Source of the DNA: Arenicola marina
Lineage: Eukaryota; Annelida; Polychaeta; Arenicolidae
NCBI GenBank assembly: GCA_964019135.1
Contig: OZ025256.1
Span: forward strand, 22,947,911 to 23,011,910
DNA: 64,000 nt
Direction of reading: 5' to 3'
Translations under genes and position numbers: made by a program
Notes under the pieces: model-generated
Databases searched by the model: none
What the model was told of the DNA's origin: nothing
Seen by the model: only the letters and a program-made list of their open reading frames with translations
Shown here: in pieces, positions 1,441 through 60,642 of the stretch
How the letters are laid out: each line of letters opens with the position of its first letter
Position numbering within the stretch: the stretch's first letter is position 1

Positions 1441-2360
1441 CCCTCCTTGATCCCCATATGTACGTATATAAAAAGTGATTGTAAAACTACTTATTTCTTC
1501 GTGGAGGTGACGGCGCATGGCCGCTGTTAACCTTGACCCCATGGCCGCTGTTAACCTTGACCCCACGTTAACCTTGACTCCACGTGGCCAATGCTGTGAT
1601 ATGCAATGTTGTTTAAACATTCTGGCGGATTTCACACCCATACGGGCATCGGATGTTTCACGAGCAAAAGTCAGTGGAAGCTACGGGGAAATACATCAAC
1701 TACGTTACCTACTGATATCAGAACTACATTTGATAACTGGCTGTGGAGAGATCTGTCTAAATGCATCGCCAATAGTTACTTTGCTTTATTTTGGAAATGA
1801 AATGATGTTGTCTTAGGCCCGTTTTGTGGCCAGCAGGGCTAGATGGGGTCCCAGAACCTCGGGGACAATTAATCATAAGGAAGAAATATGTCCAAGATGA
1901 CATCGCTTAGGTCCGGGTTCGAACCAGACACCTATTGACCTGTAGTCTGCAAAACTTTACAGAAGTAATGACCTCAGACTGGTTCGAATTGAAGTAGCGA
2001 CCTGATCAATCCCGGCATTACAATATAATTACTTGTTTTTAGCTGGTGATCACTTTGACTTTATAAATATATATTCTCTGGCGTTGCTATCGTGTTTTGT
2101 TTTTTATCTACTTGACAGTTACAGAATTTGCCAGTTACAGTCAATAATTTATCAGTAGCTTATTCTAAACTCTTTACATTTTTTCTTAACAACAAAGCTG
2201 ATTAATTGCTTCGGCGACTTCCTTTTCTTTTTGATACTAATCTTATATTATTTTACTGACGTGACATGCATACTTTTGCGCAACATGTTGTCGAACATAT
2301 CAAGTACATCCTTTGAATTCCTTGAGTTTTTTTTGACGGCTGCATTTTGTTTCATTTCAG
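1441..2360. other. Non-coding stretch upstream of the palmitoyltransferase gene
   Basis: Near 1516-1575 a ~24-bp motif (GCCGCTGTTAACCTTGACCC) occurs twice in full plus a partial copy. A lone Pol III B-box-like GGTTCGAACC lies at 1916-1925 within sequence resembling the tRNA-derived satellite at 12 kb, so it is probably a tRNA/SINE scrap. From about 2000 the DNA is AT-rich, consistent with an intron or 5' flank. No further gene is seen. Confidence 0.5.
2347..2360 (+). other. Candidate 3' splice site before the ZDHHC coding exon
   Basis: A T/C-rich run ending TTTCATTTCAG stops at 2360, 23 bases before the preferred start codon. This suggests that at least one non-coding 5' exon lies upstream and that the coding exon begins at 2361. 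The reading frame stays open upstream to 2231, but that part has AT-rich intron-like composition. Confidence 0.45.
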
Positions 2361-2383
2361 AGCATTTTAAAGAGCAGGTCGCC

Positions 2384-3496
2384 ATGGCAACGGGCGCGAC
2401 GCCCCCTCGTGGTGGACTGGGGAGTTCCGGTGACGGCGCGGGGTGTGCCGGGAAGGGTCGCGTCGTCTCGTTCTTCGAGCGGCTCAGTGTGTGCGCCATG
2501 TATTGGTATTGGCTCACCATGATCGGGGTCCTCTACTACGGCATGTTCGAGGTCCTCCCCGCCCTGTACGTCCACCTGGGAGAGGCGTGGCTCCTCTGCC
2601 AGCGCATCTTCTGCGGCTTCGTCTGGGTCCAGATGACGCTGAACTGGGCATGCGTGCGGTACACGTCATCGGACTTCCGGCCCGACGACCACATGGAGTA
2701 CATCAGCGCGCACGCCGACGAGATCTCGAACGGCGGATACGAGATCAACTTGAATCACTTACGCCAGGGCGGCGAGCCAGGTAATTATTCACTTCCGGTT
2801 CAGAGTTTGCGACAGGTGGACGGCGCGCCTGTCAACTCGTCCAAGTTCGCGACCAACACGATGTACATCATGGCTGAGGACCCGCCTGAGCCAGGGTCGG
2901 ACCGCCGCCGGGTCCTCTACCCGTACTGGTCCTGGAAGCCCTGCGTGGTGTGCCAGGTGCAGCGGCCGCCCCGCGCCCACCACTGTCAGATCTGTAACAC
3001 GTGCGTCCTGAGGCGCGACCACCACTGCTACTTCACCTCGTCCTGTATCGGGCTGCGCAACCAGCGCCACTTCGTCATCTTCAACCTCTGGGCGACTGTC
3101 ATCACGTCCTACTGCCTGGTCCACGCATGCGCTTACATCTACTGGGAGATGACAGCCCGCATCGGCGGCCTTGACCTTCTACTGCCCATCACCTTTCTGC
3201 GCTGGTGCCTCGGCTGCGTCTCGGCGCGAGATCTCGTCGGCATCGCGCTCCTGTACTCGGTCACGTGGTTCTTCTTCACGTCGGCCGGATTTCTGAGGGA
3301 TCAGGTCAAGGTCATTCTCAAGGGCACGACCTCATTCGAGGAGGATTGCAACATGAAGATCACGTGCACGGCGTCGAAGGCTCAGAATATCAAGGGTGTC
3401 TTCGGCGATTACTGGTACCTCAACCTCCTCGTGCCCCTCCACATGGTCTTCCCCTGCAACGACGACGGCGTCACGTGGCCACACGTAAAGGCGTGA
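2384..3496 (+). CDS. DHHC-type palmitoyltransferase (ZDHHC22/24-like)
   Basis: Predicted 370-residue protein S-acyltransferase, a multi-pass membrane enzyme that transfers palmitate from palmitoyl-CoA to cysteines of substrate proteins. The cysteine-rich domain starts at about residue 187 (CVVCQVQRPPRAHHC) and leads into CVLRRDHHC, with the catalytic Cys at residue 215. Hydrophobic segments lie at about 36-64, 68-92, 236-260 and 275-310, the usual two before and two after the DHHC domain. DHHC is followed by YF rather than the common P(W). This and the C-terminal FPCNDDGVTW resemble the ZDHHC22/24 group from memory. A TTSFE near the last membrane segment may be a variant TTxE motif. The start at 2384 is chosen for its Kozak context (GTCGCCATGG) and because the sharp rise in GC begins there. 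The coding region is continuous, with no intron. The family call is firm; the subgroup is inferred. Confidence 0.93.
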   Translation: MATGATPPRGGLGSSGDGAGCAGKGRVVSFFERLSVCAMYWYWLTMIGVLYYGMFEVLPALYVHLGEAWLLCQRIFCGFVWVQMTLNWACVRYTSSDFRPDDHMEYISAHADEISNGGYEINLNHLRQGGEPGNYSLPVQSLRQVDGAPVNSSKFATNTMYIMAEDPPEPGSDRRRVLYPYWSWKPCVVCQVQRPPRAHHCQICNTCVLRRDHHCYFTSSCIGLRNQRHFVIFNLWATVITSYCLVHACAYIYWEMTARIGGLDLLLPITFLRWCLGCVSARDLVGIALLYSVTWFFFTSAGFLRDQVKVILKGTTSFEEDCNMKITCTASKAQNIKGVFGDYWYLNLLVPLHMVFPCNDDGVTWPHVKA

Positions 3497-9690: not shown

Positions 9691-11525
9691 ATGTCTACGT
9701 TTATGCAGGATAAAGGTACCATGTCTAACGTCACAAAGAGCAAAGGGCTACTTAGCGGTGATTGCGCCACTGTACAACATGCTATGTTTATGCCGGATAA
9801 AGGTACCATGTCTAACGTCGCAAAGAGCAACTGGCTACTTAGCGGTGATTGCACCACTGTACAACATGCTATGTTTATGCCGGATAAAGGTACCATGTCT
9901 AACGTCACAAAGAGCAAAGGGCTACTTAGCGGTGATTGCGCCACTGTACAACATGCTATGTTTATGCCGGATAAAGGTACCATGTCTAACGTCGCAAAGA
10001 GCAACTGGCTACTTAGCGGTGATTGCACCACTGTACAACATGCTATGTTTATGCCGGATAAAGGTACCATGTCTAACGTCGCAAAGAGCAACTGGCTACT
10101 TAGCGGTGATTGCACCACTGTACAACATGCTATGTTTATGCCGGATAAAGGTACCATGTCTAACGTCGCAAAGAGCAAAGGGCTACTTAGCGGTGATTGC
10201 ACCACTGTACAACATGCTATGTTTATGCCGGATAAAGGTACCATGTCTAACGTCGCAAAGAGCAAAGGGCCACTTAGCGGTGATTGCGCCACTGTACAAC
10301 ACGCTATGTTTATGCCGGATAAAGGTACCATGTCTAACGTCGCAAAGAGCAACTGGCTACTTAGCGGTGATTGCGCCACTGTACAACATGCTATGTTTAT
10401 GCCGGATAAAGGTACCATGTCTAACGTCGCAAAGCGCAAAGGACTACTTAGCGGTGATTGCGCCACTGTACAACATGCTATGTTTATGCCGGATAAAGGT
10501 ACCATGTCTAACGTCGCAAAGAGCAACTGGCTTCTTAGCGGTGATTGCGCCACTGTACAACATGCTATGTTTATGCAGGTTAAGGTACCATGTCTAACGT
10601 CACAAAGAGCAAAGGGCCACTTAGCGGTGATTGCACCACTGCACAACATGCTATGTTTATGCCGGATAAAGGTACCATGTCTAACGTCGCAAAGAGCAAA
10701 GGGCTACTTAGCGGTGATTGCGCCACTGTACAACATGCTATGTTTATGCTGGATAAAGGTACCATGTCTAACGTCGCAAAGAGCAACTGGCTACTTAGCG
10801 GTGATTGCGCCACTGTACAACATGCTATGTTTATGCCGGATAAAGGTACCATGTCTAACGTCGCAAAGCGCAAAGGACTACTTAGCGGTGATTGCGCCAC
10901 TGTACAACATGCTATGTTTATGCCGGATAAAGGTACCATGTCTAACGTCGCAAAGAGCAACTGGCTACTTAGCGGTGATTGCGCCACTGTACAACATGCT
11001 ATGTTTATGCAGGTTAAGGTACCATGTCTAACGTCACAAAGAGCAAAGGACTACTTAGCGGTGATTGCGCCACTGTACAACATGCTATGTTTATGCTGGA
11101 TAAAGGTACCATGTCTAACGTCGCAAAGAGCAACTGGCGACTTAGCGGTGATTGCGCCACTGTACAACATGCTATGTTTATGCCGGATAAAGGTACCATG
11201 TCTAACGTCGCAAAGCGCAAAGGACTACTTAGCGGTGATTGCGCCACTGTACAACATGCTATGTTTATGCCGGATAAAGGTACCATGTCTAACGTCGCAA
11301 AGAGCAACTGGCTACTTAGCGGTGATTGCGCCACTGTACAACATGCTATGTTTATGCAGGTTAAGGTACCATGTCTAACGTCACAAAGAGCAAAGGACTA
11401 CTTAGCGGTGATTGCGCCACTGTACAACATGCTATATTTATGCCGGATAAAGGTACCATGTCTAACGTCCCAAAGAGCAAAGGGCTACTTAGCGGTTATT
11501 TGCGCCACTGTACAACATGCTTTGC
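9691..11525. repeat. 87-bp satellite with higher-order structure, about 21 copies
   Basis: Units run ATGTTTATGCCGGATAAAGG ... CACTGTACAACATGCT and differ mainly at one block (AACTGGCTA versus AAAGGGCTA). An 86-bp variant with CAGGTTAAGG recurs at about 10573, 11007 and 11354. The spacings of 434 and 347 bp equal five and four units, so blocks of units have been copied together. Because 87 is a multiple of three, two plus-strand frames and one minus-strand frame stay open. The variable sites are largely amino-acid changing in each frame, which speaks against a real protein. Confidence 0.96.
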
Positions 11526-12059
11526 ACCGATCTGTGATCATATATATGAATGCGTTATCAAAACTCTGTGACGTCAGCAAACGCCCACGTGACGTCCGGT
11601 TGGCTTTGTTTAATAGCGCTTTTTGTTTGTTTACATTCGATAGGGTTCCAGCACAATACGTAAAATGGATAACATATCAAACTTATAGGTCAGCCGCAGT
11701 GTCTGTTTCGTATAGGTGACGTCTATTGATGTTTTCAAGGTCACATAGGTCGATTTGTATTTGAGAAGCGCATTTTATAGGCGTGTGCGATATACCGCAG
11801 GATAATAAATCTTGTACAAAATTTTTTGCGTTCGTTCAGCAGGGTTTGTTGACACTTTTCTACTCAGCCCTTACCTGTCTTTCAAATACATATTTCTCAT
11901 CCAAATAATCATGAATTGACAAATCTGGCGTTCTTCGTGCACAAATACATTAAAAATAACGGGAAATGAAATGAATCTTTGTGTAAACGAAAGTCATAAA
12001 TTGGGCTCGAATCCTGCCGAGACAATGGAATGCAGTGGGAAGACACTTTCCGCATATTC
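11526..12059. other. Unique AT-rich spacer between two arrays
   Basis: No gene recognised. An A/T run (AAAATTTTTTG) lies near 11819. It is on the downstream side of the minus-strand Pol III-like units at 12 kb and could serve as a T-run terminator, but this is speculation. Confidence 0.35.
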
Positions 12060-13372
12060 AAGTAACAAGATTCGAACCCACGACTTATTGATATGTTGAT
12101 CTACTGCTCAGTGTGCATACCAACTGAGCTAGGAGGGCTCCCCGCCCGGGTTCGAACCTACGATCTGTTGACCTACTGGTCAGCGTGCATGCCAACTGAG
12201 CTAGGAGGGCTCCCTGCCCGGGTTCGAACCTACGACCTGTTGATCTACAGCTCAGCGTGCGTACCAACTGAGCTAGGAGGGCACCCTGCCCAGGTTTGAA
12301 CCTACGACCTGTTGGTCTACAGTTCAGAGTGCGTACCAACTGAGCTAGGAGGGCTCCCTGCCCGGGTTCGAACCTACGACCTGTTGATCTACTGCTCAGT
12401 GTGCGTACCAACTGAGCTAGGAGGGCTCCCTGCCCGGGTTCGAACCTACGACCTGTTGATCTACTGCTCAGTGTGCGTACCAACTGAGCTAGGAGGGCTC
12501 CCTGCCCGGGTTCGAACCTACGACCTGTTGATCTACTGCTCAGTGTGCGTACCAACTGAGCTAGGAGGGCTCCCTGCCCGGGTTCGAACCTACGACCTGT
12601 TGATCTACAGCTCGGTGTGCGTACCAACTGAGCTAGGAGGGCTCCCTGCCCAGGTTTGAACCCACAACCTATTGCTCTACAGTTCAGAGTGCATACCAAC
12701 TGAGCTAGGAGGGCTCCCTGCCCGGGTTCGAACCTACGACCTGTTGATCTACAGCTCAGTGTGCGTACCAACTGAGCTAGGAGGGCTCCCTGCCCGGGTT
12801 CGAACCTACGACCTGTTGATCTACTGCTCAGTGTGCGTACCAACTGAGCTAGGAGGGCTCCCTGGGAGGGTTCGAACCTACGACCTGTTGATCTACTGCT
12901 CAGTGTGCGTACCAACTGAGCTAGGAGGGCTCCCTGCCCGGGTTCGAACCTACGACCTGTTGATCTACTGCTCAGTGTGCGTACCAACTGAGCTAGGAGG
13001 GCACCCTGCCCAGGTTTGAACCCACAACCTATTGGACTACAGTTCAGAGTGCATACCAACTGAGCTAGGAAGGCTCCCTGCCCGGGATCGAACCCACAAC
13101 CGATTTCTCTACAGTTCAGAGTGCATATCAACTGAGCTAGGAGGGCTCCCTGCCCCGGTTCGAACCTACGACCTGTTGGTCTATAGCTCAGAGCCCGTAC
13201 CAACTAAGCTAGGAGTGCTCCCTGCCCGGGTTCTAACCTACGACCTGTTGGTCTACAGTTCAGAGTGCATACCAACTGAGCTAGGAGGGCTCCCTGCCCG
13301 GGTTTGAACCTACGACCTGTTGGTCTATAGCTCAGAGCGCGTACCAACAGAACTAGGAGGGGTCCCTGCTCG
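12060..13372 (-). repeat. 72-bp tRNA-derived satellite, about 18 head-to-tail units
   Basis: Read on the minus strand, each unit carries TAGCTCAGTTGG (matching the Pol III A-box consensus TRGYNNARNNGG) and, about 45 bases later, GGTTCGAACC (B box). The 72-bp period equals the length of a tRNA with no spacer. The acceptor and T-stem halves do not pair properly in my hand folding, so these are tRNA-derived repeats rather than working tRNA genes. Units at 12.3, 12.66 and 13.02 kb share a diverged form with GTTTGAACC and recur at 360-bp steps (five units), showing a higher-order repeat. The open frames in both directions are by-products of 72 being a multiple of three. Confidence 0.9.
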
Positions 13373-13720
13373 ATTGTTTCATTCTATAAATTCAGAAACT
13401 TAATAAACATTGCCGTTTCGGCTGTGATATGGCAAACGTGTCTATCCTCGGACACCACAAAACTCTGTCGCGGCACTGCTACTTATACAAAAGCATCGCG
13501 AAGACACACAAACTGATGACGTTTACCACTAAAATGAAAACCTGTAGTAAATGGATATGACGTGCAAGGCTAAGAGACATTATTTGGCAGTCTGGCATGG
13601 GTGGGGTATAGACAAAAGAATATTATTTGTATTTTGACCTCATCATTTTTGGCGGGAAAGAGATCGACATGCAACTTTAACAAACGCATTATTTATCACA
13701 TCTAACCCCCTAAGTAAACA
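13373..13720. other. Unique AT-rich flank of the tRNA-derived array
   Basis: No gene, RNA or repeat recognised. Confidence 0.35.
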
Positions 13721-13845
13721 GATTAATTACCGTGTCTAATGTTGTGACAAACAAATTAATTACCGTATCTAATGTTGTTGACAAACAACTTAATTACCGT
13801 ATCTAATGTTGTTGAAGAACAAATTAATTACCTTATCTAATGAAA
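13721..13845. repeat. ~32-bp tandem repeat, 4 copies
   Basis: Units share AATTAATTACCGTATCTAAT followed by GTTGTTGACAAAC, with small changes. The fourth copy has CCTTATC. Confidence 0.88.
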
Positions 13846-14390
13846 TTATCGTTCTTGAAAACGGGCTACTTGTGTACAGTAGCATAACTACATATAGAAC
13901 TTTCATCAAACGCGTAATGAAATATTGTAATAACAAATGTTGTGACTGACAACTTATTAGGGGCTGATAAATAAAGGTTTTGCTATGGCTAATGGCTGCA
14001 GGCTTGTCAATGACATGTCTATTGCGACCCAGTTCTGGGTTTGAGATGGCAGTGATGGCTGTTATTTGGGCTGATATATCACCCAGGCTTACTCAGGTTT
14101 TTAAATAACATTTCTATTATGGCTAATATATTACTCGTGTCTTTGAAGAACAAGTGTCATAAATGTCGTATACAGATTCGACTTGGCTCACGTGCTTTGA
14201 AACACTGGATAGACGTGCTGGTTGTTAGCATTAGAATGTTGGCCACCCTAGTATCAAAAGCAATAGGTAGTGACGTCAGGTTGAAAGCAAATCATTACGG
14301 TTACACAATCGAATGAATGAATTCAAGGGGGGGGGGGTGAGGTGGGGGGTAGGGGCGGGGGGTACTGCTTAAATGGAGACAGAACTATGG
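13846..14390. other. Non-coding stretch ending in a G-rich tract
   Basis: A duplicated GGCTAAT/GGCTG-type phrase occurs around 13985-14120. A poly-G tract with GGGGTGAGGTGGGGGG lies at about 14328-14362. The open frame 14119-14316 resembles nothing known to me. Confidence 0.35.
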
Positions 14391-14640
14391 GCGAACAAAA
14401 CACTAAAATTAAGCAAAAATTAAACGGCAAACTCAATATTTGACGAAAATTTAACGAAAGTTAAGTACGAACCCAATACATAACAAAACTTAGACGAAAA
14501 GTAAAGTACGAACCAAATACACGACAAAACGACCCGAAAAGTCAAGTGCGAACTAAACATACGGCAAAAATGACGCGAAAATTAAAGTACGGAAACAAAC
14601 CCTCGACCAAAAAGGACAAAGAGAAACAATTACACGACTA
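14391..14640. repeat. Degenerate ~60-bp repeat, about 4 copies
   Basis: Repeating phrases are ACGAAAA(T/G)TAAAGTACGAAC followed by CAAATACACGACAAAA. Copies are diverged but keep order and spacing. Confidence 0.7.
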
Positions 14641-14676
14641 AAAAGGGAATAAGGAGATGGGAAAGACTTCCCCATA

Positions 14677-14845
14677 TTAAGTTCTCGGTCTCGTCGCGGT
14701 CCCGTCGCTGAGCTCTTCACTGTCCCTGTCGTACACTACCAGGGGTGAGGGGGGTCGGACCCATGCACCACCCTCACATCCGTGAGCCCCTCTCTACCTT
14801 CCCTGCGCTGCCCCCTTCGCATTCTCTCCCCCCCCCCACCCCGAG
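14677..14845 (+). repeat. Dispersed repeat, copy A (partner at 17.68 kb)
   Basis: It starts TTAAGTTCTCGGTCTCGTCG and includes CTGTCCCTGTCGTACACTA and the CCGTGAGCCCC...CCTGCGCTGC block. The same blocks recur in the same order at 17677-18010. Here the two halves are directly adjacent. Confidence 0.88.
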
Positions 14846-15137
14846 CCCCGCTCCTACCTCCTGATCCAGCTATGGTAGGGTGGGTGAGAGAGACAGAGCT
14901 CGCGTCTTGCCCCTTTCAGGGTGATCAATTAGCCCTCCCTTCACTACCGCCAGGGAGATGAATGCCGAAACGTTGTCCGCCAAGTCTTTCGTTGGCATTC
15001 CGTCTGGCAAGTGACCAATAACCTCAGCGATGGCGGCTCTCATCTAGCGATCCTTTCCGCCATATTAATTTTGAAAGACGGAGGTGAATATGTTGACACG
15101 TATTTTATATCTAGTTATGTATGTAATTGTCAGTTTC

Positions 15138-15796
15138 TGGGGCATCAGGGGCAGGGTGGGGGGCATCAGGGGCAGGGTGGGGGGGGCATCAGGGGCAGGG
15201 AGGGGGGCATCAGGGGCAGCGTGGGGGGCATCAAGGGCAGGGTGGGGGGCATCAGGGGCAAGCTGGGGGGCATCAGGGGCAGGGTGGGGGCATCAGGGGC
15301 AGGGAGGGGGGCATGAGGCGCAGGGTGGGGGGCATCAGGGGCAGGCTGGGGGCATCAATGGCAGGGTGGGGGGCATGAGGGGCAGGGTGGGGGGCATCAG
15401 GGGCAGGCTGGGGGGCATCAAGGGTAGGGTGAGGGGCATCACGGGCAGGGTGGGGGCATCAGAGGCAGGCTGGGGGGCATCAAGGGCAGAGTGGGGGGCA
15501 TCAGGGGCAGGGTGGGGGGCATCAGGGGCAGGGTGGGGGGCATCAGGGGCAGGCTGGGGGGCATCAGGGGCAGGCTGGGGGGCATCAAGGGCAGGGAGGG
15601 GGGCATGAGGGGCAGGGTGGGAGGCATCAGGGGCAGGGTTGGGGGCATCAGGGGCAGGCGGGGGGGCATCAGGGGCAGGCTGGGGGGCATCAATGGCAGG
15701 GTGGGGGGCATCAGGGGCAGGGTGGGGGGCATCAGGGGCAGGGTGGGGGGCATCAGGGGCAGGAAGGGGGGCATCAAGGGCAGGGTGGGGGGTAGC
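15138..15796 (+). repeat. 21-bp G-rich minisatellite, about 31 copies
   Basis: The unit is GGCATCAGGGGCAGGGTGGGG with variants (CAAGGGCAG, CATGAGG, GGCTGGGG). The plus strand has several runs of three to six G per unit, ideal for G-quadruplexes. Gly/Arg/Ala-rich plus-strand frames and Pro-rich minus-strand frames of up to ~170 codons are artefacts of the period being a multiple of three. Confidence 0.95.
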
Positions 15797-16111
15797 CCTG
15801 GTACATGCCTCTCTTACCACGCCCGTAAACGGAGCAAGGGTGAGAGCCATGCCGCTGACACGGCCGAAAACAAGAAATCGCGGACCGGTGGCTCAAGTTC
15901 ATAACAGAATATATATACAGTGCCTACCCGTCAAGTTGCTCCATTAGATTCCTGAAGCTTTCATGACTTTCGTCGGACAGTCATTTCTTTGGTCGGTAGT
16001 GTATTTTCTTGTAATCCGGACGATTTGTGTCCTCTCTCGCTTCGTTTTGAATGCTCCGCCGCTCGCCGGAGATAAACAAACTTAGCGTGAGCACTCGCTG
16101 CCAGGCGGCGT
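15797..16111. other. Unique spacer
   Basis: No gene, RNA or repeat recognised between the G-rich array and the second tRNA-derived cluster. Confidence 0.35.
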
Positions 16112-16366
16112 TTGTTGACATGTGCGTACCAATTGAGCTAGGAGGGCTCCCTGCCCGGGTTCGAACCTACGACCTGTTGGTCTACAGCTCAGCGTGCGTA
16201 CCAATTGAGCTAGGAGGGCTCCCTGCCCGGGTTCGAACCTACGACCTGTTGGTCTACAGCTCAGCGTGCGTGCCAATTGAGCTAGGAGGGCTCCCTGCCC
16301 GGGTTCGAACCTACGACCTGTTGGTCTACAACTCAGCGTGCACACTAAATGAGCTAGGAAGAGTTA
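16112..16366 (-). repeat. Second cluster of the 72-bp tRNA-derived repeat, 3.5 copies
   Basis: Same family as the array at 12-13.4 kb. On the minus strand the A box reads TAGCTCAATTGG and the B box GGTTCGAACC. The three full copies are nearly identical to each other and share the A-for-G change in the A box, so this cluster expanded separately from one founder. Confidence 0.9.
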
Positions 16367-16534
16367 ATCTCTGTGACATAGCATAATCAGATGAGATGAT
16401 ATATAAGGAATCCCGAAACGCAGATGCAGATGAGTTTTGCAGACGGAACTAGGACTGTCGATTGAACAGACAATTAGTGTGTGATATAGCGGACCAGGCT
16501 CGGTGGATTCCATCCAATAAAGGGCTTTGGGGGC

Positions 16535-16650
16535 GAGCGAATATTCCTATTGGGTTAATGCGTTTGGCACTCTGAATGCGAAAGGTCGCCGGATCGAATC
16601 CCCGTATGTTCGGGTGTGGATATTGCTACATCCAACAAAGCCTGATGCCC
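16535..16650 (+). repeat. tRNA-derived SINE-like head
   Basis: TTGGGTTAATGCGTTTGGCA resembles an A-box region. About 40 bases on, GGTCGCCGGATCGAATCCCC resembles a B-box/T-arm region. The spacing fits a tRNA-derived SINE head. A further phrase at about 16670-16685 (CCAACTGAGCTACAG) looks like an A-box region of the opposite strand. Tail and borders are not clear. Confidence 0.5.
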
Positions 16651-16699
16651 TTTTGCTTACAATGTCACTACCAACTGAGCTACAGAGAAAGTATCGACG

Positions 16700-21165: not shown

Positions 21166-24100
21166 GTAAGGAGGGGGAGGGGAGGGGAGGGTGAGAAGGG
21201 GAGGGAGGGAAGCGAAGGGAGGGAAGGGGAGAAAGCAAAGGGAGGAAAGCGAAGGAAGGGGAGGGGAGGGAGGAAATGGGAGGGACGCGAGCTAGGTGGA
21301 CGCCAAGGACGGAATACAGCGGACAGGGGGAAAGTGAGGGAGGGGAGGGAGGTGGACGGTAAGGATGGAGGCAAGGGAGGGAGGTGGACGGTAAGGATGG
21401 AGGGAGGGGAGGGAGGTGGACGGTAAGGATGGAGGCAAGGGAGGGAGGTGGACGGTAAGGATGGAGGGAGGGGAGGGAGGTGGACAGTAAGGATGGAGGG
21501 AGGGGAGGGAGGTGGACGGTAAGGATGGAGGCAAGAGAGGGAGGTGGACGGTGAGGATGGAGGCAAGGGAGGGAGGTGGACAGTAAGGATGGAGGGAGGG
21601 GAGGGAGGTGGACGGTAAGGATGGAGGGAGGGGAGGGAGGTGGACGGTAAGGATGGAGGGAAGGGAGGGAGATGGATGGTAAGGATGGAGGGAAGGGAGG
21701 GAGGTGGACGGTAAGGATGGAGGGAGGGGAGGGAGGTGGACGGTAAGGATGGAGGGAGAGGAGGGAGGTGGACGGTAAGGATGGAGGCAAGGGAGGGAGG
21801 TGGACGGTAAGGATGGAGGCAAGGGAGTGAGGTGGACGGTAAGGATGGAGGGAGGGGAGGGAGGTGGACAGTAAGGATGGAGGGAGGGGAGGGAGATGGA
21901 CGGTAAGGATGGAGGGAGGGGAGGGAGGTGGACGGTAAGGATGGAGGGAGGGGAGGGAGGTGGACGGTAAGGATGGAGGCAAGGGAGGGAGGTGGACGGT
22001 AAGGATGGAGGCAAGGGTGGGAGGTGGACGGTAAGGATGGAGGGAGGGGAGGGAGGTGGACGGTACGGATGGAGGCAAGGGAGGGAGATGGACGGTAAGG
22101 ATGGAGGGAGGGGAGGGAGGTGGACGGTAAGGATGGAGGCAAGGGAGGGAGGTGGACGGTAAGGATGGAGGGAGGGGAGGGAGGTGGACAGTAAGGATGG
22201 AGGGAGGGGAGGGAGGTGGACGGTAAGGATGGAGGCAAGTGAGGGAGGTGGACGGTGAGGATGGAGGCAAGGGAGGGAGGTGGACAGTAAGGATGGAGGG
22301 AGGGGAGGGAGGTGGACGGTAAGGATGGAGGGAGGGGAGGGAGGTGGACGGTAAGGATGGAGGGAAGGGAGGGAGATGGATGGTAAGGATGGAGGGAAGG
22401 GAGGGAGGTGGACGGTAAGGATGGAGGGAGGGGAGGGAGGTGGACGGTAAGGATGGAGGGAGAGGAGGGAGGTGGACGGTAAGGATGGAGGCAAGGGAGG
22501 GAGGTGGACGATAAAGATGGAGGCAAGGGAGTGAGGTGGACGGTAAGGATGGAGGGAGAGGAGGGAGGTGGACGGTAAGGATGGAGGCAAGGGAGGGAGG
22601 TGGACGGTAAGGATGGAGGGAGGGGAAGGAGGTGGACAGTAAGGATGGAGGCAAGGGAGGGAGGTGAACGGTGATGATTGAGGGAGGGGAGGGAGGTGGA
22701 CGGTAAGGATGGAGGGAAGGGAGGGAGGTGGACAGTAAGGATGGAGGGAGGGGAGGGAGGTAGACGGTAAGGATGGAGGCAAGGGAGGGATGTGAACGGT
22801 AAGGATGGAGGCAAGGGAGGGAGGTGGACGGTAAGGATGGAGGGAGGGGAGGGAGGTGGACAGTAAGGATGGAGGGAGGGGGGGGGGAGGTGGACGGTAA
22901 GGATGGAGGCAAGGGAGGGAGGTGGACGGTAAGGATGGAGGGAGGGGAGGGAGGTGGACGGTAAGGATGGAGGCAAGGGAGGGAGGTGGACGGTAAGGAT
23001 GGAGGGAGGGGAGGGAGGTGGACAGTAAGGATGGAGGGAGGGGAGGGAGGTGGACGGTAAGGATGGAGGCAAGGGAGGGAGGTGGACGGTAAGGATGGAG
23101 GCAAGGGAGGGAGGTGGACAGTAAGGATGGAGGGAGGGGAGGGAGGTGGACGGTAAGGATGGAGGGAGGGGAGGGAGGTGGACGGTAAGGATGAAGGGAA
23201 GGGAGGGAGGTGGACGGTAAGGATGGAGGGAGGGGAGGGAGGTGGACGGTAAGGTCGGAGGCAAGGGAGGGAGGTGGACGGTAAGGATGGAGGGAGGGGA
23301 GGGAGGTGGACGGTAAGGATGAAGGGAGGGGAGGGAGGTGGACGGTAAGGATGGAGGGAGGGGAGGGAGATGGACGGTAAGGATGGAGGGAGGGGAGGGT
23401 GGTGGACGGTAAGGATGGAGGCAAGGGAGGGAGGTGGACGGTAAGGATGGAGGCAAGGGAGGGAGGTGGACGGTAAGGATGGAGGGAAGGGAGGGAGGTG
23501 GACGGTAAGGATGGAGGGAGGGGAGGGAGGTGGACGGTAAGGATGGAGGGAGGGGAGGGAGGTGGACGGTAAGGATGGAGGCAAGGGAGGGAGGTGGACA
23601 GTAAGGATGAAGGGAGGAGAGGGAGGTGGACGGTAAGGATGGAGGGAAGGGAGGGAGGTGGACGGTAAGGATGGAGGGAAGGGAGGGAGGTGGACGGTAA
23701 GGATGGAGGGAGGGGAGGGAGGTGGACGGTAAGGATGGAGGGAGGGGAGGGAGGTGGACGGTAAGGATGGAGGGAAGGGAGGGAGGTGGACGGTAAGGAT
23801 GGAGGGAGGGGAGGGAGGTGGACGGTAAGGATGGAGGGAGGGGAGGGAGGTGGACGGTAAGGATGGAGGGAGGGGAGGGAGGTGGACGGTAAGGATGAAG
23901 GGAGGGGAGGGAGGTGGACGGTAAGGATAGAGGGAAGGGAGGGAGGTGGACGGTAAGGATGGAGGGAAGGGAGGGAGGTGGACGGTAAGGATGGAGGGAA
24001 GGGAGGGAGGTGGACGGTAAGGATGAAGGGAGGGGAGGGAGGTGGACGGTAAGGATGGAGGCAAGGGGGGGAGGTATACGGTAAGGATGGAGGGAAGGGA

Positions 24101-27100
24101 GGGAGGTGGACGGTAAGGATGGAGGGAGGGGAGGGAGGTGTACGGTAAGGATGGAGGCAAGGGAGGGAGGTGGACAGTAAGGATGGAGGGAGGGGAGGGA
24201 GGTGGACGGTAAGGATGGAGGGAGGGGAGGGAGGTGGACGGTAAGGATGGAGGGAGGGGAGGGAGGTGGACGGTAAGGATGGAGGCAAGGGAGGGAGGTG
24301 GACGGTAAGGATGAAGGGAGGGGAGGGAGGTGGACGGTAAGGATGGAGGGAAGGGAGGGAGGTGGACGGTAAGGATGGAGGCAAGGGAGGGAGGTGGACG
24401 GTTAGGGTGAAGGGAGGGGAGGGAGTTGGACGGTAAGGATGGAGGCAAGGGAGGTAGGTGGACGGTAAAGATGGAGGGAGGGGAGGGAGGTGGACGGTAA
24501 GGATGGAGGGAGGGGAGGGAGGTGGACGGTAAGGATGAAGGGAGGGGAGGGAGGTGGACGGTAAGGATGGAGGCAAGGGAGGGAGGTGGACAGTAGGGAT
24601 GGAGGGAGGGGAGGGAGGTGGACGGTAAGGATGGAGGAAGGGGAAGGAGGTGGACGGTAAGGATGAAAGGAGGGGAGGGAGGTGGACGGTAAGGATGGAG
24701 GGAGGGGAAGGAGGTGGACGGTAAGGATGAAGGGAGGGGAGGGAGGTGGACGGTAAGGATGGAGGGAGGGGAGGGATGTGGACGGTAAGGATGGAGGGAG
24801 GGGAGGGAGGTGGACGGTAAGGATGGAGGGAGGGGAGGGAGGTGGACGGTAAGGATGGAGGGAGGGGAGGGAGGTGGACGGTAAGGATGGAGGGAGGGGA
24901 GGGAGGTGGACGGTAAGGATGAAGGGAGGGGAGGGAGGTGGACGGTAAGGTTGGAGGGAAGGGAGGGAGGTGGACGGTAAGGATGGAGGGAAGGGAGGGA
25001 GGTGGACGGTAAGGATGGATGGAAGCGAGGGAGGAGGACGGTAAGGATGGAGGGAAGGGAGGGAGGTGGACGGTAAGGATGGAGGGAAGGGAGGGAGGTG
25101 GACGGTAAGGATGAAGGGAGGGGAGGGAGGTGGACGGTAAGGATGGAGGGAGGGGAGGGAGGTGGACGGTAAGGATGGAGGGAGGGGAGGGAGGTGGACG
25201 GTAAGGATGGAGGCAAGGGAGGGAGGTGGACGGTAAGGATGGAGGGAGGGGAGGGAGGTGGACGGTAAGGATGGAGGCAAGGGAGGGAGGTGGACGGTAA
25301 GGATGGAGGGAGGGGAGGGAGGTGGACGGTAAGGATGGAGGGAAGGGAGGGAGGTGGACGGTAAGGATGGAGGGAGGGGAGGGAGGTGGACGGTAAGGAT
25401 GGAGGGAGGGGAGGGAGGTGGACGGTAAGGATGGAGGCAAGGGAGGGAGGTGGACGGTAAGGATGGAGGGAGGGGAGGGAGGTGGACGGTAAGGATGGAG
25501 GGAGGGGAGGGAGGTGGACGATAAGGATGGAGGGAGGGGAGGGAGGTGGACGGTAAGGATGGAAGGAGGGGAGGGAGGTGGACGGTAAGGATGAAGGGAG
25601 GGGAGGGAGGTGGACGGTAAGGATGGAGGGAGGGGAGGGAGGTGGACGGTAAGGATGGAGGGAGGGGAGGGAGGTGGACGGTAAGGATGGAGGGAGGGGA
25701 GGGAGGTGGACGGTAAGGATGGAGGGAGGGGAGGGAGGTGGACGGTAAAGATGGAGGGAAGGGAGGGAGGTGGACGGTAAGGATGGAGGGAGGGGAGGGA
25801 GGTGGACGGTAAGGATGGAGGGAGGGGAGGGAGGTGGACGGTAAGGATGGAGGCAAGGGAGGGAGGTGGACGGTAAGGATGGAGGGAGGGGAGGGAGGTG
25901 GACGGTAAGGATGGAGGGAGGGGAGGGAGGTGGACGGTAAGGATGGAGGGAGGGGAGGGAGGTGGACGGTAAGGATGGAGGGAGGGGAGGGAGGTGGACG
26001 GTAAGGATGAAGGGAGGGGAGGGAGGTGGACGGTAAGGATGGAGGGAGGGGAGGGAGGTGGACGGTAAGGATGGAGGGAGGGGAGGGAGGTGGACGGTCA
26101 GGATGGAGGGAGGGGACTGAGGTGGACGGTAAGGATGGAGGGAGGGGAGGGAGGTGGACGGTAAGGATAGAGGGAGGGGAGGGAGGTGGACGGTAAGGAT
26201 GGAGGGAGGGGAGGGAGGTGGACGGTAAGGATAGAGGGAGGGGAGGGAGGTGGACGGTAAGGATGGAGGCAAGGGAGGGAGGTGGACGGTAAGGATGGAG
26301 GGAGGGGAGGGAGGTGGACGGTAAGGATGGAGGGAGGGGAGGGATGTGGACGGTAAGGATGAAGGGAGGGGAGGGGGGGGGACGGTAAGGATGGAAGGAA
26401 GGGAGGGAGGTGGACGGTAAGGATGGAGGGAAGGGAGGGAGGTGGACGGTAAGGATGGTGGGAAGGGAGGGAGGTGGACGGTCAGGATGAAGGGAGGGGA
26501 GGGAGGTGGACGGTAAGGATGGAGGGAGGGGAGGGAGGTGGACGGTAAGGATGGAGGCAAGGGAGGGAGGTGGACGGTAAGGATGGAGGGAGGGGAGGGA
26601 GGTGGACGGTAAGGATGGAGGCAAGGGAGGGAGGTGGACGGTAAGGATGGAGGGAGGGGAAGGAGGTGGACGGTAAGGATGGAGGGAGGGGAGGGAGGTG
26701 GACGGTAAGGATGGAGGGAGGGGAGGGAGGTGGACGGTTAGGATGGAGGCAAGGGAGGGAGGTGGACGGTAAGGATGGAGGGAGGGGAGGGAGGTGGACG
26801 GTAAGGATGGAGGCAAGGGAGGGAGGTGGACGGTGAGGATGGAGGGAGGGGAGGGAGGTGGACGGTAAGGATGGAGGCAAGGGAGGGAGGTGGACGGTAA
26901 GGATGGAGGGAAGGGAAGGAGGTGGACGGTAAGGATGGAGGCAAGGGAAGGAGGTGGACGGTAAGGATGGAGGGAGGGGAGGGAGGTGGACGGTAAGGAT
27001 GGAGGGAAGGGAGGGAGGTGGACGGTAAGGATGCAGGGAGGGGAGGGAGGTGGACGGTAAGGATGGAGGGAGGGGAGGGTGGTGGACGGTAAGGATGGAG

Positions 27101-30100
27101 GCATGGGAGGGAGGTAGACGGTAAGGATGGAGGGAGGGGAGGGAGGTGGACAGTAAGGATGGAGGCAAGGGAGGGAGGTGGACGGTAAGGATGGAGGGAG
27201 GGGAGGGAGGTGGACGGTAAGGATGGAGGGAGGGGAGGGAGGTGGACGGTAAGGATGGAGGCAAGGGAGGGAGGTAGACGGTAAGGATGGAGGGAGGGGA
27301 GGGAGGTGGACAGTAAGGATGGAGGCAAGGGAGGGAGGTGGACGGTAAGGATGGAGGGAGGGGAGGGAGGTGGACGGTAAGGATGGAGGGAGGGGAGGGA
27401 GGTGGACGGTAAGGATGGAGGCAAGGGAGGGAGGTGGACGGTAAGGATGGAGGGAGGGGAGGGAGGTGGACGGTAAGGATGGAGGGAGGGGAGGGAGGTG
27501 GACGGTAAGGATGGAGGCAAGGGAAGGAGGTTGACGGTAAGGATGGAGGGAGGGGAGGGAGGTGGACAGTAAGGATGGAGCCAAGGGAGGGAGGTGGACG
27601 GTAAGGATGGAGGGAGGGGAGGGAGGTGGACGGTAAGGATGGAGGGAGGGGAGGGAGGTGGACGGTAAGGATGGAGGCAAGGGAGGGAGGTAGACGGTAA
27701 GGATGGAGGGAGGGGAGGGAGGTGGACAGTAAGGATGGAGGCAAGGGAGGGAGGTGGACGGTAAGGATGGAGGGAGGGGAGGGAGGTGGACGGTAAGGAT
27801 GGAGGGAGGGGAGGGAGGTGGACGGTAATGATGGAGGCAAGGGAGGGAGGTGGACGGTAAGGATGGAGGGAGGGGAGGGAGGTGGACGGTAAGGATGGAG
27901 GCAAGGGAAGGAGGTGGACGGTAAGGATGGAGGGAGGGGAGGGAGGTGGACGGTAAGGATGGAGGCAAGGGAGGGAGGTGGACGGTAAGGATGGAGGGAA
28001 GGGAGGGAGGTGGACGGTAAGGATGGAGGGAGGGGAGGGAGGTGGACAGTAAGGATGGAGGCAAGGGAGGGAGATGGACGGTAAGGATGGAGGGAAGGGA
28101 GGGAGATGGACAGTAAGGATGGAGGGAGGGGAGGGAGGTGGACAGTAAGGATGGAGGCAAGGGAGGGAGATGGACGATAAGGATGGAGGGAGGGGAGGGA
28201 GGTGGACGGTAAGGATGGAGGGAAGGGAGGGAGATGGACGGTAAGGATGGAGGGAGGGGAGGGAGGTGGACGGTAAGGATGGAGGGAAGGGAGGGAGGTG
28301 GACGGTAAGGATGGAGGCAAGGGAGGGAGGTGGACGGTAAGGATGGAGGGAAGGGAGGGAGATGGACGGTAAGGATGGAGGGAGGGGAGGGAGGTGGACA
28401 GTAAGGATGGAGGGAGGGGAAGGAGGTGGACGGTAAGGACGGAGGCAAGGGAGGGAGGTGGACGGTAAGGATGAAGGGAGGGGAGGGAGGTGGACGGTAA
28501 GGATGGAGGGAAGGGAGGGAGGTGGACGGTAAGGATGGAGGGAAGGGAGGGAGGTGGACGGTAAGGATGGAGGGAAGGGAGGGAGGTGGACGGTAAGGAT
28601 GGAGGGAGGGGAGGGAGGTGGACGGTAAGGATGGAGGGAGGGGAGGGAGGTGGACGGTAAGGATGGAGGGAGGGGAGGGAGGTGGACGGTAATGATGGAG
28701 GGAGGGGAGGGAGGTGGACAGTAAGGATGGAGGGAGGGGAAGGAGGTGGACGGTAAGGATGGAGGCAAGGGAGGGAGGTGGACGGTCAGGATGGAGGGAG
28801 GGGAGGGAGGTGGACGGTAAGGATGGAGGGAATGGAGGGAGATGGACGGTAAGAATGGAGGGAGGGGAGGGCGGTGGACGGTAAGGATGGAGGGAAGGGA
28901 GGGAGGTGGACGGTAAGGATGGAGGGAAGGGAGGGAGGTGGACGGTAAGGATGGAGGGAAGGGAGGGAGATGGACGTTAGGGATGGAGGGAGGGGAGGGA
29001 GGTGGACAGTAAGGATGGAGGGAGGGGAAGGAGGTGGACGGTAAGGATGGAGGCAAGGGAGGGAGGTGGACGGTAAGGATGAAGGGAGGGGAGGGAGGTG
29101 GACGGTAAGGATGGAGGGAAGGGAGGGAGGTGGACGGTAAGGATGGAGGGAGGGGAGGGAGGTGGACGGTAAGGATGGAGGGAAGGGAGGGAGGTGGACG
29201 GTAAGGATGGAGGGAGGGGAGGGAGGTGGACGGGAAGGATGGAGGGAGGGGAGGGAGGTGGACGGTAAGGATGGAGGGAGGGGAGGGAAGTGGACGGTAA
29301 GGATGGAGGGAGGGGAGGGAAGTGGACAGTAAGGATGGAGGGAGGGGAAGGAGGTGGACGGTAAGGATGGAGGCAAGAGAGGGAGGTGGACGGTAAGGAT
29401 GGAGGGAGGGGAGGGAGGTGGACGGTAAGGATGGAGGGAGGGGAGGGAGGTGGACAGTAAGGATGGAGGGAGGGGAAGGAGGTGGACGGTAAGGATGGAG
29501 GCAAGGGAGGGAGGTGGACGGTAAGGATGAAGGGAGGGGAGGGAGGTGGACGGTAAGGATGAAGGGAAGGGAGGGAGGTGGACGGTAAGGATGGAGGGAG
29601 GGGAGGGAGGTGGACGGTAAGGATGGAGGGAGGGGAGGGAGGTGGACGGTAAGGATGGAGGGAAGGGAGGGAGGTGGACGGTAAGAATGGAGGGAGGGGA
29701 GGGAGGTGGACGGTAAGGATGGAGGCAAGGGAGGGAGGTGGACGGTAGGGATGAAGGGAGGGGAGGGAGGTGGACGGTAAGGATGGAGGGAGGGGAGGGA
29801 GGTGGACGGTAAGGATGGAGGCAAGGGAGGGAGGTGGACGATAAGGATGGAGGGAGGGGAGGGAGGTGGACGGTAAGGATGGAGGCAAGGGAGGGAGGTG
29901 GACGGTAAGGATGGAGGGAGGGGAGGGAGGTGGACGGTAAGGATGGAGGGCAGGTAGGGAGGTGGACAGTAAGGATGGAGGGAGGGGAAGGAGGTGGACG
30001 GTAAGGATGGAGGCAAGGGAGGGAGGTGGACGGTAAGGATGGAGGGAGGGGAAGGAGGTGGACGGTAAGGATGGAGGGAGGGGAGGGAGGTGGACGGTAA

Positions 30101-33100
30101 GGATGGAGGCAAGGGAGGGAGGTGGACGGTAAGGATGGAGGGAGGGGAGGGAGGTGGACGGTAAGGCTGGAGGGAGGGGAGGGAGGTGGACAGTAAGGAT
30201 GGAGGGAGGGGAGGGAGGTGGACGGTAAGGATGGAGGGAGGGGAGGGAGGTGGACGCTAAGGATGGAGGCAAGGGAGGGAGGTGGACGGTAAGGATGGAG
30301 GGAGGGGAGGGAGGTGGACAGTAAGGATGGAGGGAGGGGAGGGAGGCGGACGGTAAGGATGGAGGCAAGGGAGGGAGGTGGACGGTAAGGATGGAGGGAG
30401 GGGAGGGAGGTGGACAGTAAGGATGGAGGGAGGGGAGGGAGGGGGACGGTAAGGATGGAGGCAAGGGAGGGAGGTGGACGGTAAGGATGGAGGGAGGGGA
30501 GGGAGGTGGACGGTAAGGATGGAGGGAGGGGAGGGAGGTGGACGGTAAGGATGAAGGGAGGGGAGGGAGGTGGACGGTAAGGATGGAGGGAGGGGAGGGA
30601 GGTGGACGGTAAGGATGGAGGCAAGGGAGGGAGGTGGACGGTAAGGATGGAGGGAGGGGAAGGAGGTGGACGGTAAGGATGGAGGGAAGGGAGGGAGATG
30701 GACGGTAAGGATGGAGGGAGGGGAGGGAGGTGGACAGTAAGGATGGAGGGGAGGGAAGGAGATGGACGGTAAGGATGGAGGGAGGGGAGGGAGGTGGACG
30801 GTAAGGATGGAGGGAGGGGAGAGAGGTGGACGGTAAGGATGGAGGCAAGGGAGGGGGGTGGACGGTAAGGATGGAGGGAGGGGAGGGAGGTGGACGGTAA
30901 GGATGGAGGGAGGGGAGGGAGGTGGACGGTATGGATGGAGGGAGGGGAGGGAGGTGGACGGTAAGGATGGAGGGAGGGGAGGGAGGTGGACGGTAAGGAT
31001 GGAGGCAGGGGAGGGAGGTGGACGGTAAGGATGGAAGGAGGGGAGGGAGGTGGACGGTACGGATGGAGGGAGGGGAGGGAGGTGGACGGTAAGGATGGAG
31101 GGAGGGGAGGGAGGTGGACGGTAAGGATGGAGGGAGGGGAGGGAGGTGGACGGTAAGGATGGAGGGAGGGGAGGGAGGTGGACGGTAAGGATGGAGGGAA
31201 GGGAGGGAGGTGGACGGTAAGGATGGAGGCAAGGGAGGGAGGTGGACGGTAAGGATGGAGGGAGGGGAGGGAGGTGGACGGTAAGGATGGAGGGAGGGGA
31301 GGGAGGTGGACGGTAAGGATGGAGGGAGGGGAGGGAGGTGGACGGTAAGGATGGAGGGAGGGGAGGGAGGTGGACGGTAAGGATGGAGGCAAGGGAGGGA
31401 GATGGACGGTAAGGATGGAGGGAGGGGAGGGAGGTGGACGGTAATGATGGAGGGAGGGGAGGGAGGTGGACGGTAAGGATGGAGGGAGGGGAGGGAGGTG
31501 GACGGTAAGGATGGAGGGAGGGGAGGGAGGTGGACGGTAAGGATGGAGGGAAGGGAGGGAGGTGGACGGTAAGGATGGAGGGAGGGGAGGGAGGTGGACG
31601 GTAAGGATGGAGGGAGGGGAGGGAGGTGGACGGTAAGGATGGAGGCAAGGGAGGGAGGTGGACGGTAAGGATGGAGGGAGGGGAGGGAGGTGGACGGTAA
31701 AGATGGAGGGAGGGGTGGGAGGTGGACGGTAAGGATGGAGGGAAGGGAGGGAGGTGGACGGTAAGGATGGAGGGAGGGGAGGGAGGTGGACGGTAAGGAT
31801 GAAGGGAGGGGAGGGAGGTGGACGGTAAGGATGGAGGCAAGGGAGGGAGGTGGACGGTAAGGATGGAGGCAAGGGAGGGAGGTGGACGGTAAGGATGGAG
31901 GGAGGGGAGGGAGGTGGACGGTAAGGATGGAGGGAAGGGAGGGAGGTGGACAGTAAGGATTGAGGGAAGGGAGGGAGGTGGACAGTAAGGATGGAGGGAA
32001 GGGAGGGAGGTGGACGGTAAGGATGGAGGAAGGGGAGGGAGGTGGACGGTAAGGATGGAGGGAAGGGAGGGAGGTGGACGGTAAGGATGGAGGGAGGGGA
32101 GGGAGGTGGACGGTAAGGATGGAGGGAGGGGAGGGAGGTGGACGGTAAGGATGGAGGCAAGGGAGGGAGGTGGACGGTAGGGATGGAGGCAAGGGAGGGA
32201 GGTGGACGGTAAGGATGGAGGGAGGGGAGGGAGGTGGACGGTAAGGATGGAGGCAAGGGAGGGAGGTGGACGGTAAGGATGGCGGGAGGGGAGGGAGGTG
32301 GACGGTAAGGATGGAGGGAGGGGAGGGAGGTGGACGGTAAGGATGGAGGGAAGGGGAGGGAGATGGACGGTAAGGATGGAGGCAAGGGAGGGAGGTGGAC
32401 GGTAAGGATGGAGGCAAGGGAGGGAGCTGGACGGTAAGGATGGAGGGAAGGGAAGGAGGTGGACGGTAAGGATGGAATGAGGGGAGGGAGGTGGACGGTA
32501 AGGATGGAGGCAAGGGAGGGAGGTGGACGGTAAGGATGAAGGGAGGGGAGGGAGGTGGACGGTAAGGATGGAGGGAGGGGAGGGAGGTGGACGGTAAGGA
32601 TTTAGGCAAGGGAGCGAGGTGGACGGTAAGGATTGAGGGAGGGGAGGAAGGTGGACGGTAAGGATGGAGGGAGGGAAGGGAGGTGGACGGTAAGGATGGA
32701 GGCAAGGGAGGGAGGTGGACGGTAAGGATGGAGGCAAGGGAGGGAGGTAGACGGTAAGGATGGAGGGAGGGGAGGGAGGTGGACGGTAAGGATGGAGGGA
32801 GGGGAGGGAGATGGACGGTAAGGATGGAGGGAGGGGAGGGTGGTGGACGGTAAGGATGGAGGCAAGGGAGGGAGGTGGACGGTAAGGATGAAAGGAGGGG
32901 AGGGAGATGGACGGTAGGGATGGAGGGAGGGGAGGGAGGTGGACGGTAAGGATGGAGGGAAGGGAGGGAGGTGGACGGTAAGGATGGATGCAAGGGAGGG
33001 AGGTGGACAGTAAGGATGGAGGGAGGGGAGGGAGGTGGACGGTAAGGATGGAGGGAGGGGAGGGAAGTGGACGGTAAGGATGGAGGGAGGGGAGGGAGGT

Positions 33101-60264: not shown

Positions 60265-60642
60265 GTTGTTACAATTAATAGATGCTTTTAGTGATACAGT
60301 TAAAATATGAGCTAATTAATATATCTCACGCTAGATATGAAATGAAATGTTGGACCACTTTGAAGTCCACGTGCAAGATAGTTTGGGCCAAGAAACCTCG
60401 AGTGTCAGTGGACTGATATGACATACTTAGATTAAATGAAACATGGCTCAGATGGATGTGTCATGTTTAAACTCCTGGCCGACGGTATGCAGCTCACTAA
60501 GCATGCTTATCTAGGGAGCCTCTCTTAACATTGTTTCAAGAGCAATCATTCAATCTCAAGCATTATTTTAATTTCACCTTATGTTGATTTCGTCATTCGT
60601 TTACCGAAATATTCTGACTGTGAGTGAATTATTGTCACACAG

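Follow-up and report, generated by a model that had tools for sequence, protein, structure and literature searches.

A tandem array of 72-bp tRNA-like units in Arenicola marina as a probable early-stage SINE-derived satellite

The units of a 72-bp tandem array on C9 of the Arenicola marina genome were found to be copies of the head of a SINE, and the array ran straight into the body of this SINE. We put the probability at roughly 85% that the array represents one old SINE insertion in which the head was multiplied to 18 copies with the body and tail left single, that is, an early-stage SINE-derived satellite. The window hereafter denotes the whole 64,000-nt stretch analyzed (C9:22947911-23011910), located mid-contig (22.95 of 43.4 Mb on C9), and the genome searches covered the 867-Mb assembly of 762 contigs. 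The features of the window relevant to the array are the following.

12068..13367, minus strand: 18 tandem SINE heads with a 72-bp period (TRF, direct block scan and consensus); the unit corresponds to SINE nt 1-72, AGGGAGCC...CCCGGGC, with the A box at unit nt 13-24 and the B box at nt 58-67
11978..12067, minus strand: SINE body contiguous with the last head, in the same orientation (nhmmer, E 8.1e-6)
11963..11976, minus strand: short tail ATTCATTTCATTTC, a simple repeat resembling the CATTT/ATTTC tails seen elsewhere in the family (from the sequence)
11952..11956, minus strand: TTTTT, the predicted first Pol III terminator, where the sense strand shows four or more consecutive T for the first time downstream of the start of the array
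16123..16362, minus strand: second short head array of the same type, about 3.3 units (TRF and scan)
16667-16687: extra head fragment near the second array
1798..1899, minus strand: body of an ordinary old SINE copy of the same body type (nhmmer, E 2.7e-9)
60365..60464, minus strand: body of another ordinary old SINE copy (nhmmer, E 4.9e-6)

Results

Structure of the array in the window

TRF analysis detected a period of 72 bp with 17.7 copies at 12094-13369, and the direct scan of the minus strand located A-box-like and B-box-like blocks, 18 of each, spaced by 72 bp, the last B block being offset by 8 bp further on. These results confirmed the view of an earlier note on this DNA that about 18 head-to-tail units are present on the minus strand. 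Its statement that each unit carries both blocks held for the boxes at 72-bp steps and not for the exact words, as the block scan counted the A block TAGCTCAGTTGG without change in 15 of the 18 units and the B block GGTTCGAACC in 11 of the 18. A CAA variant of the B block, GGTTCAAACC (GGTTTGAACC on the plus strand), occurred in unit 1 as well as in units 5, 10 and 15, and units lying five steps apart were on average closer to each other (5.2 differences, compared with 6.5-7.6 at lags 1-4, 6 and 7), in agreement with the previously proposed 360-bp recurrence and multi-unit amplification. The coordinates given in the earlier note covered the array and missed the SINE body and tail at approximately 11963-12067 as well as the second array at 16123-16362. 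The pattern of A and B blocks gave 111 exact matches in the whole genome and none when reversed, which excluded chance.

A 372-codon open frame ran through the array on the minus strand (12085-13203), because 72 is a multiple of three. The Pfam match of this frame to PF08815 (nuclear receptor coactivator) was rejected as surely spurious.

The window also contained a 12.9-kb minisatellite with a 32-bp G-rich unit in about 402 copies (21336-34215), a long open frame on the plus strand with a DHHC palmitoyltransferase domain (2231-3496; Pfam E 4.9e-26), and retroelement frames on the minus strand with reverse transcriptase, RNase H and integrase domains (41248-45125 and 61465-63963).

The unit is the head of a dispersed SINE

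Among 30 loci extracted from the genome, many were single heads, and one shared body followed most of these. The single-copy SINE, as defined by alignment of 13 copies, has a 72-nt head (AGGGAGCC...CCCTGGC), about 115 nt of body sequence and a short tail, with a simple repeat of the ATTTC type in several of the aligned copies. All of these 13 copies, picked by rank from the best 100 of the 353 head-body junction matches (up to 3 mismatches; none for the reversed control), had one head only. The copies were dispersed over many chromosomes, each with a head carrying the A and B boxes followed by the body. Target-site duplications were searched for in 20 single copies and the window copy, in which the words shared between the two sides were no longer than those in mismatched pairs, and the copies are old. 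The SINE label accordingly rests on the head, the body, the tail and the dispersal.

The body in the window was identified with an nhmmer model built from 14 single-copy SINEs, excluding the window, and run on the whole window, for which the best hit in the reversed window had an E value of 0.33. As the body match next to the array was modest by itself (E 8.1e-6), we considered the possibility that an unrelated satellite had landed by chance beside a SINE fragment. The single-copy element, however, showed the identical order of head and body, and the body was present downstream on the same strand, directly or shortly past the last head, at 19 of the 26 multi-head loci examined (within 130 bp). 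The repeated arrangement of head array and body refuted the chance explanation, to which we assign a negligible probability.

Multi-head loci elsewhere in the genome

The 26 loci above had been selected for their similarity to the window or for box patterns and are thus not a random sample, and the window, L003, L006 and L069 all come from one duplicated family on C9; L078 and L079, whose array ends were not fetched, L018-L021, and L102 as a duplicate of L101 were left out of the count. The seven loci lacking the body were L003, L006, L069, L071, L083, L103 and L104, and at L069 a body was located beside its heads on the opposite strand. Many arrays began, as judged by eye, within the first nucleotides of the SINE.

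The number of heads formed a wide series: two (L103, L104 and L129), at least three (L130), five (L100, L101 and L106), six (L102), seven (L003, L070, L084 and L105), eight (L029) and ten (L083), followed by 13, 15, 18 to 21, 26, 37, 39 and 82 (L080), with lower bounds of at least 20 (L086), at least 70 (L079) and at least 90 (L078) where the fetched stretch ended inside the array. The body was sometimes multiple, with three body pieces in a row after the heads at L076 and two at L081. Whole-genome searches at up to 3 mismatches gave 5746 matches for the head and 3851 for the body, and none for the reversed controls. When the best 100 matches listed for each, which did not cover all chromosomes, were inspected, a neighbor on the same strand within 300 bp was found at 65 places for the head compared with 0 for the body.

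Two other arrangements were observed. The array at L069 (C9:26.508 Mb) was inverted, with head units facing each other on opposite strands. At L128 (C8:40.33 Mb), three successive copies of a 38-bp part of the head were present. This repeat begins with CTGCAG, which is found within the head as well; a microhomology duplication is a possible origin of this sub-head repeat.

Growth and spread of the arrays

Comparison of 440 units from 18 loci, all exactly 72 bp long, showed that the nearest neighbor of 428 units was in their own locus, with ties counted as own. L101 and L102 (C9, 29.90 and 30.05 Mb) were a duplicated pair with near-identical flanks where aligned, sharing the body and units; L101 had five heads and L102 six, the extra 72-bp unit being an exact repeat of its neighbor. 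The locus-specific units and this difference of one unit between L101 and L102 indicated that the arrays grow in place.

The window region, together with an 87-bp satellite at 9695-11521, recurred on C9 at 18.45 and 26.5 Mb, which were the only ones among the loci compared that matched the window flanks beyond the SINE itself. This satellite, with 21 copies and 94% matches, accompanies the head array in the duplicated C9 segments.

The head-to-head junctions were compared at 28 loci, of which eight were left out because they had been read in the wrong orientation. A linker of 21 nt was found in 17 loci, one of 22 nt in L100 and one of 5 nt in L018 and L020, and L082 and L105 also contained some 17-nt linkers. 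Short shared words such as GGG or CC were seen by eye at some junctions of other types. The recurrence of the junction from SINE nt 72 to nt 1 at unrelated loci fitted poorly with purely independent duplication in place, and points to a constrained break or to the spread of a two-headed founder, which may have come first and spread by retrotransposition.

A broader version of this idea is that the multi-head SINE is a mobile form, in which Pol III would start at an upstream head and read through all heads, the body and the tail, the multi-head RNA would be retrotransposed, and the two-headed and many-headed founders thus spread would later grow in place. The junction with the 21-nt linker recurred on several chromosomes with unrelated flanks, and L129 with two heads and L130 with at least three both had the body. 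The units contained only one run of four T in 36319 bases, none was present between the array start and the body in the window, and the first TTTTT past the window array was at 11956, beyond the SINE tail. On the other hand, the units were locus-specific as described above, the closest array pairs outside the family with shared flanks (L074/L077, L075/L076 and L083/L085) were each on one chromosome, and target-site duplications were not seen. We regard such mobility as less likely than not.

A sibling SINE with a different head

Nine of the 20 copies picked by their bodies, which were the closest body matches and not a random sample, had the same type of body joined to another tRNA-type head, which one copy carried in its 3' half only. 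The sibling head, TGGTGTAGTGGTTAGCGC..., was assigned to L107, L110, L114, L115, L118, L121, L122, L124 and L126, and to L131-L138. It gave 19409 matches at up to 3 mismatches, more than the first head, and none was obtained for the reversed control. These matches were uneven between the strands (7765 forward and 11644 reverse), a possible sign of one or more large arrays.

Exact tandem junctions of the sibling head numbered 90 at 22 loci. The linkers at four of these loci were longer (11-22 nt, compared with 7 or 9 nt), and these four could be two neighboring SINEs. At L131, six sibling heads were followed by the body (E 1.1e-10). Half of the eight fetched array edges reached the body (L131, L132, L134 and L138); L133 ended without a body, and the stretches at L135, L136 and L137 were still inside the array. 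L135 and L137 contained 54-bp sibling units without a B box. These results showed that the sibling SINE with the other head also multiplies its head.

Conservation of the Pol III boxes

The variability of the boxes was determined in 17 arrays, restricted to units of exactly 72 bp and to arrays with at least five of them, which removed 3 of 20 (L070, L081 and L086); a limit of 20 differences per unit removed no unit. Outside the boxes the mean within-array divergence was 0.050, compared with 0.046 in the A box and 0.024 in the B box, where the units had been found through the A box (up to 4 mismatches of 14), which favors the A box. Values as low were obtained at 41 of the 72 placements for the A box and at 3 of the 72 for the B box, and jointly for both boxes at 11% of random placements. 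The B box was below the rest of the unit in 15 of the 17 arrays and the A box in 10. Fixed changes relative to the SINE consensus were present in the A box of 13 arrays and in the B box of 3, and the window consensus had eight fixed changes elsewhere and none in either box. When the array consensuses were read by eye against the degenerate box motifs TRGYNNARNNGG and GWTCRANNC, seven of the 17 had a damaged A or B box and ten kept both. Positions 51-56, just before the B box, were about as invariant as the B box itself.

Two other counts were discarded. One had given a very strong conservation of the B box (21 arrays and 558 units; values as low at 1 of 57 placements for the B box and 33 of 55 for the A box) and was not accepted as proof because trimming of the local alignments had occurred right beside the B box (L078 and L083), and the period-based count above was used in its place; the same count also gave a fixed box change in 16 of the 21 arrays. 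The other was the control of 20 body-picked copies (mean divergence of 0.328 for the A box, 0.154 for the B box and 0.283 for the rest of the head), which could not serve because nine of them carry the different head.

The earlier note had proposed to ask whether the boxes are conserved beyond the rest of the unit. This was not the case for the A box, and the B box was approximately twofold less variable within arrays; the boxes as a pair are therefore not specially kept, with a weak signal remaining in the B region. The arrays might be retained as TFIIIC-binding or Pol III-transcribed elements, with an insulator or RNA function and with boxes under selection. The low divergence of the B box, below the rest of the unit in most arrays, and the unchanged boxes in the window consensus are in line with such selection, and the low variability of the B box is not predicted by a purely passive array. 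The A box, in contrast, was hardly less divergent than the rest and had acquired fixed changes in most arrays, as had the B box in a few. Furthermore, the arrays of 82 (L080) and at least 90 units (L078) both had damaged boxes, the 54-bp units of the sibling arrays lacked the B box, and the positions beside the B box were equally invariant. A selected function thus appears improbable, and a maintained Pol III or TFIIIC function was not supported as far as the sequence allows a judgment. If Pol III does use the heads, the RNAs are predicted to share their 3' end at TTTTT and to differ by 72 nt.

Relation to tRNA

The earlier note had read the array as a tandem repeat derived from tRNA that keeps both boxes and has lost the fold. 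ARAGORN detected no tRNA in the whole window, and the Rfam tRNA model gave no match in 11900-16600 at E values up to 10, nor in eight related loci at permissive thresholds, where the SINE head itself also remained without a match. Folding of a single unit was not tRNA-like (z of -1.20). The loss of the fold and the presence of both boxes were thereby borne out, and a satellite born directly from a tRNA gene was not, as the unit is a SINE head with its own body and tail.

In standard tRNA numbering, the unit presumably begins about 5 nt before tRNA position 1 and ends within the 3' acceptor strand. The mismatched acceptor would result from this early start and from the stop inside the 3' acceptor strand, and the tRNA length of the unit looks like a coincidence. 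The A and B blocks at about tRNA spacing would also agree with the array being made of genuine tRNA genes or of their pseudogenes. The same genome, however, does contain high-scoring tRNA genes elsewhere, neither program recognized a tRNA in the window stretch, the related loci were equally negative for Rfam, and a SINE body follows the array. An intact tRNA gene array is refuted by the lack of a cloverleaf in ARAGORN, Rfam and single-unit folding, and this reading retains hardly any probability. As a separate observation, high-scoring tRNA genes formed a tandem series at C3:29.958-30.003 Mb with a spacing of mostly about 1336 bp.

Concentration on chromosome C9

The loci with exact junctions of the first head type were located on C9 in 11 of 20 cases, or 6 of 15 after merging apparent copies, the locus at 22.56 Mb being merged on unit similarity alone. 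For comparison, C9 carried none of the 35 single-copy SINEs at 0-1 mismatches, seven of the best 100 of the 353 matches, and none of the 22 sibling-head loci. Fisher tests on the merged count gave P values of 0.0003, 0.0018 and 0.002 against these three sets, respectively, for a junction pattern with two exact boxes that favors window-like arrays, C9 being the window's own chromosome. The junction pattern of the SINE consensus gave 493 matches, and 6 of the 15 loci at 0-1 mismatches were again on C9.

Discussion

The early-stage SINE-derived satellite that we propose would have arisen by a first duplication of the head joining SINE nt 72 back to nt 1, after which replication slippage or unequal exchange would alter the number of heads in place; on C9 the array was copied further by segmental duplication. 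The Pol III boxes of the array are inherited from the SINE, and transcription by Pol III could still begin at any of the heads and run on to the common 3' end. The array itself is most likely a passive by-product. A more far-reaching proposal, which we hold to be rather unlikely, is that this SINE lineage has a recurrent tendency, specific to the head, towards multiplication, with the Pol III promoter itself as the driver: each head would be a start site, multi-head RNAs made by transcription or template switching could be retrotransposed, and the arrays would give 3'-coterminal RNAs that form a 72-nt ladder.

In the literature searched, SINE-derived satellites were found in PMC10702118 and the review PMC12692304; PMC9659126, PMC10294476 and PMC5874043 were also consulted on known kinds. 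The closest counterparts are the SINE-derived satellites of squamates (sSats; Vassetzky et al. 2023, PMC10702118), of which three testable features were found here: the unit is a portion of a SINE with dispersed copies, the terminal unit extends to the SINE end, and units resemble each other more inside a locus than across loci, their number differing between copies of a locus. Squamate sSats likewise show tandem units of a partial SINE with a longer terminal unit reaching the SINE end, a higher likeness within loci, loci that are one unit apart, sizes from short duplications up to hundreds of units, and an origin from several SINE families (PMC10702118). In contrast, the unit here is the head from nt 1 with both boxes, whereas the major snake unit is described as 67 nt with box B only and part of the body; the body end was kept at 19 of the 26 loci here and many arrays start at the SINE 5' end, whereas flanking by both SINE ends is presented as a minor variant in squamates (PMC10702118). 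Another difference is that two heads on one body type behave alike here. A subtelomeric preference has been reported for squamate sSats, and their occurrence outside squamates was regarded as uncertain (PMC10702118).

PcH-sat of Patella caerulea is a mollusc precedent without the boxes. It likewise goes back to a SINE of a type known from its group (Nin-SINE) but is reported to have a 179-bp unit lacking both boxes, a pericentromeric location and a share of about 10% of the genome (PMC11121367). The amphibian families Hy/Pol III, OAX or satellite I, Rana/polIII and PolIII/TAN also have tandem units with a tRNA-like segment, but the units are given as about 200 nt or more (PMC9659126 and PMC10702118), and their published links to SINEs were judged inconclusive in PMC10702118. 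Unlike in these amphibian families, the head, the body and the junctions here tie the array to a single-copy element in the same genome. Helitrons are DNA elements that are not known to carry a Pol III head. Expansion of the central tandem repeats of Helitrons (DINE) into satellites (PMC9659126) resembles the present case in that the inner part of a mobile element expands in place. The term tRNA-derived satellite was not found in the literature searched, which mostly excluded subscription papers, so that head arrays may have been reported.

Links between SINEs and satellites have often been claimed from mere similarity of fragments. The present genome by itself provides a series from one head to 82 or more on recognizable SINEs, together with a pair of loci whose head numbers differ by a single unit. 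On one body type, two different tRNA-type heads are each multiplied, the body itself mostly being exempt. The first steps in the birth of a satellite, and any role of the Pol III promoter in them, thereby become directly testable. If multiplication were promoter-driven and had affected two unrelated heads independently, the conversion of a SINE into a satellite would be a mechanism and not an accident. The results also give a warning for annotation, as plain SINE debris can take the form of a tRNA-like array with good boxes and even contain a 372-codon frame. Head multiplication at many sites of the same genome, and with two different front parts, shows how satellite DNA can originate from mobile elements.
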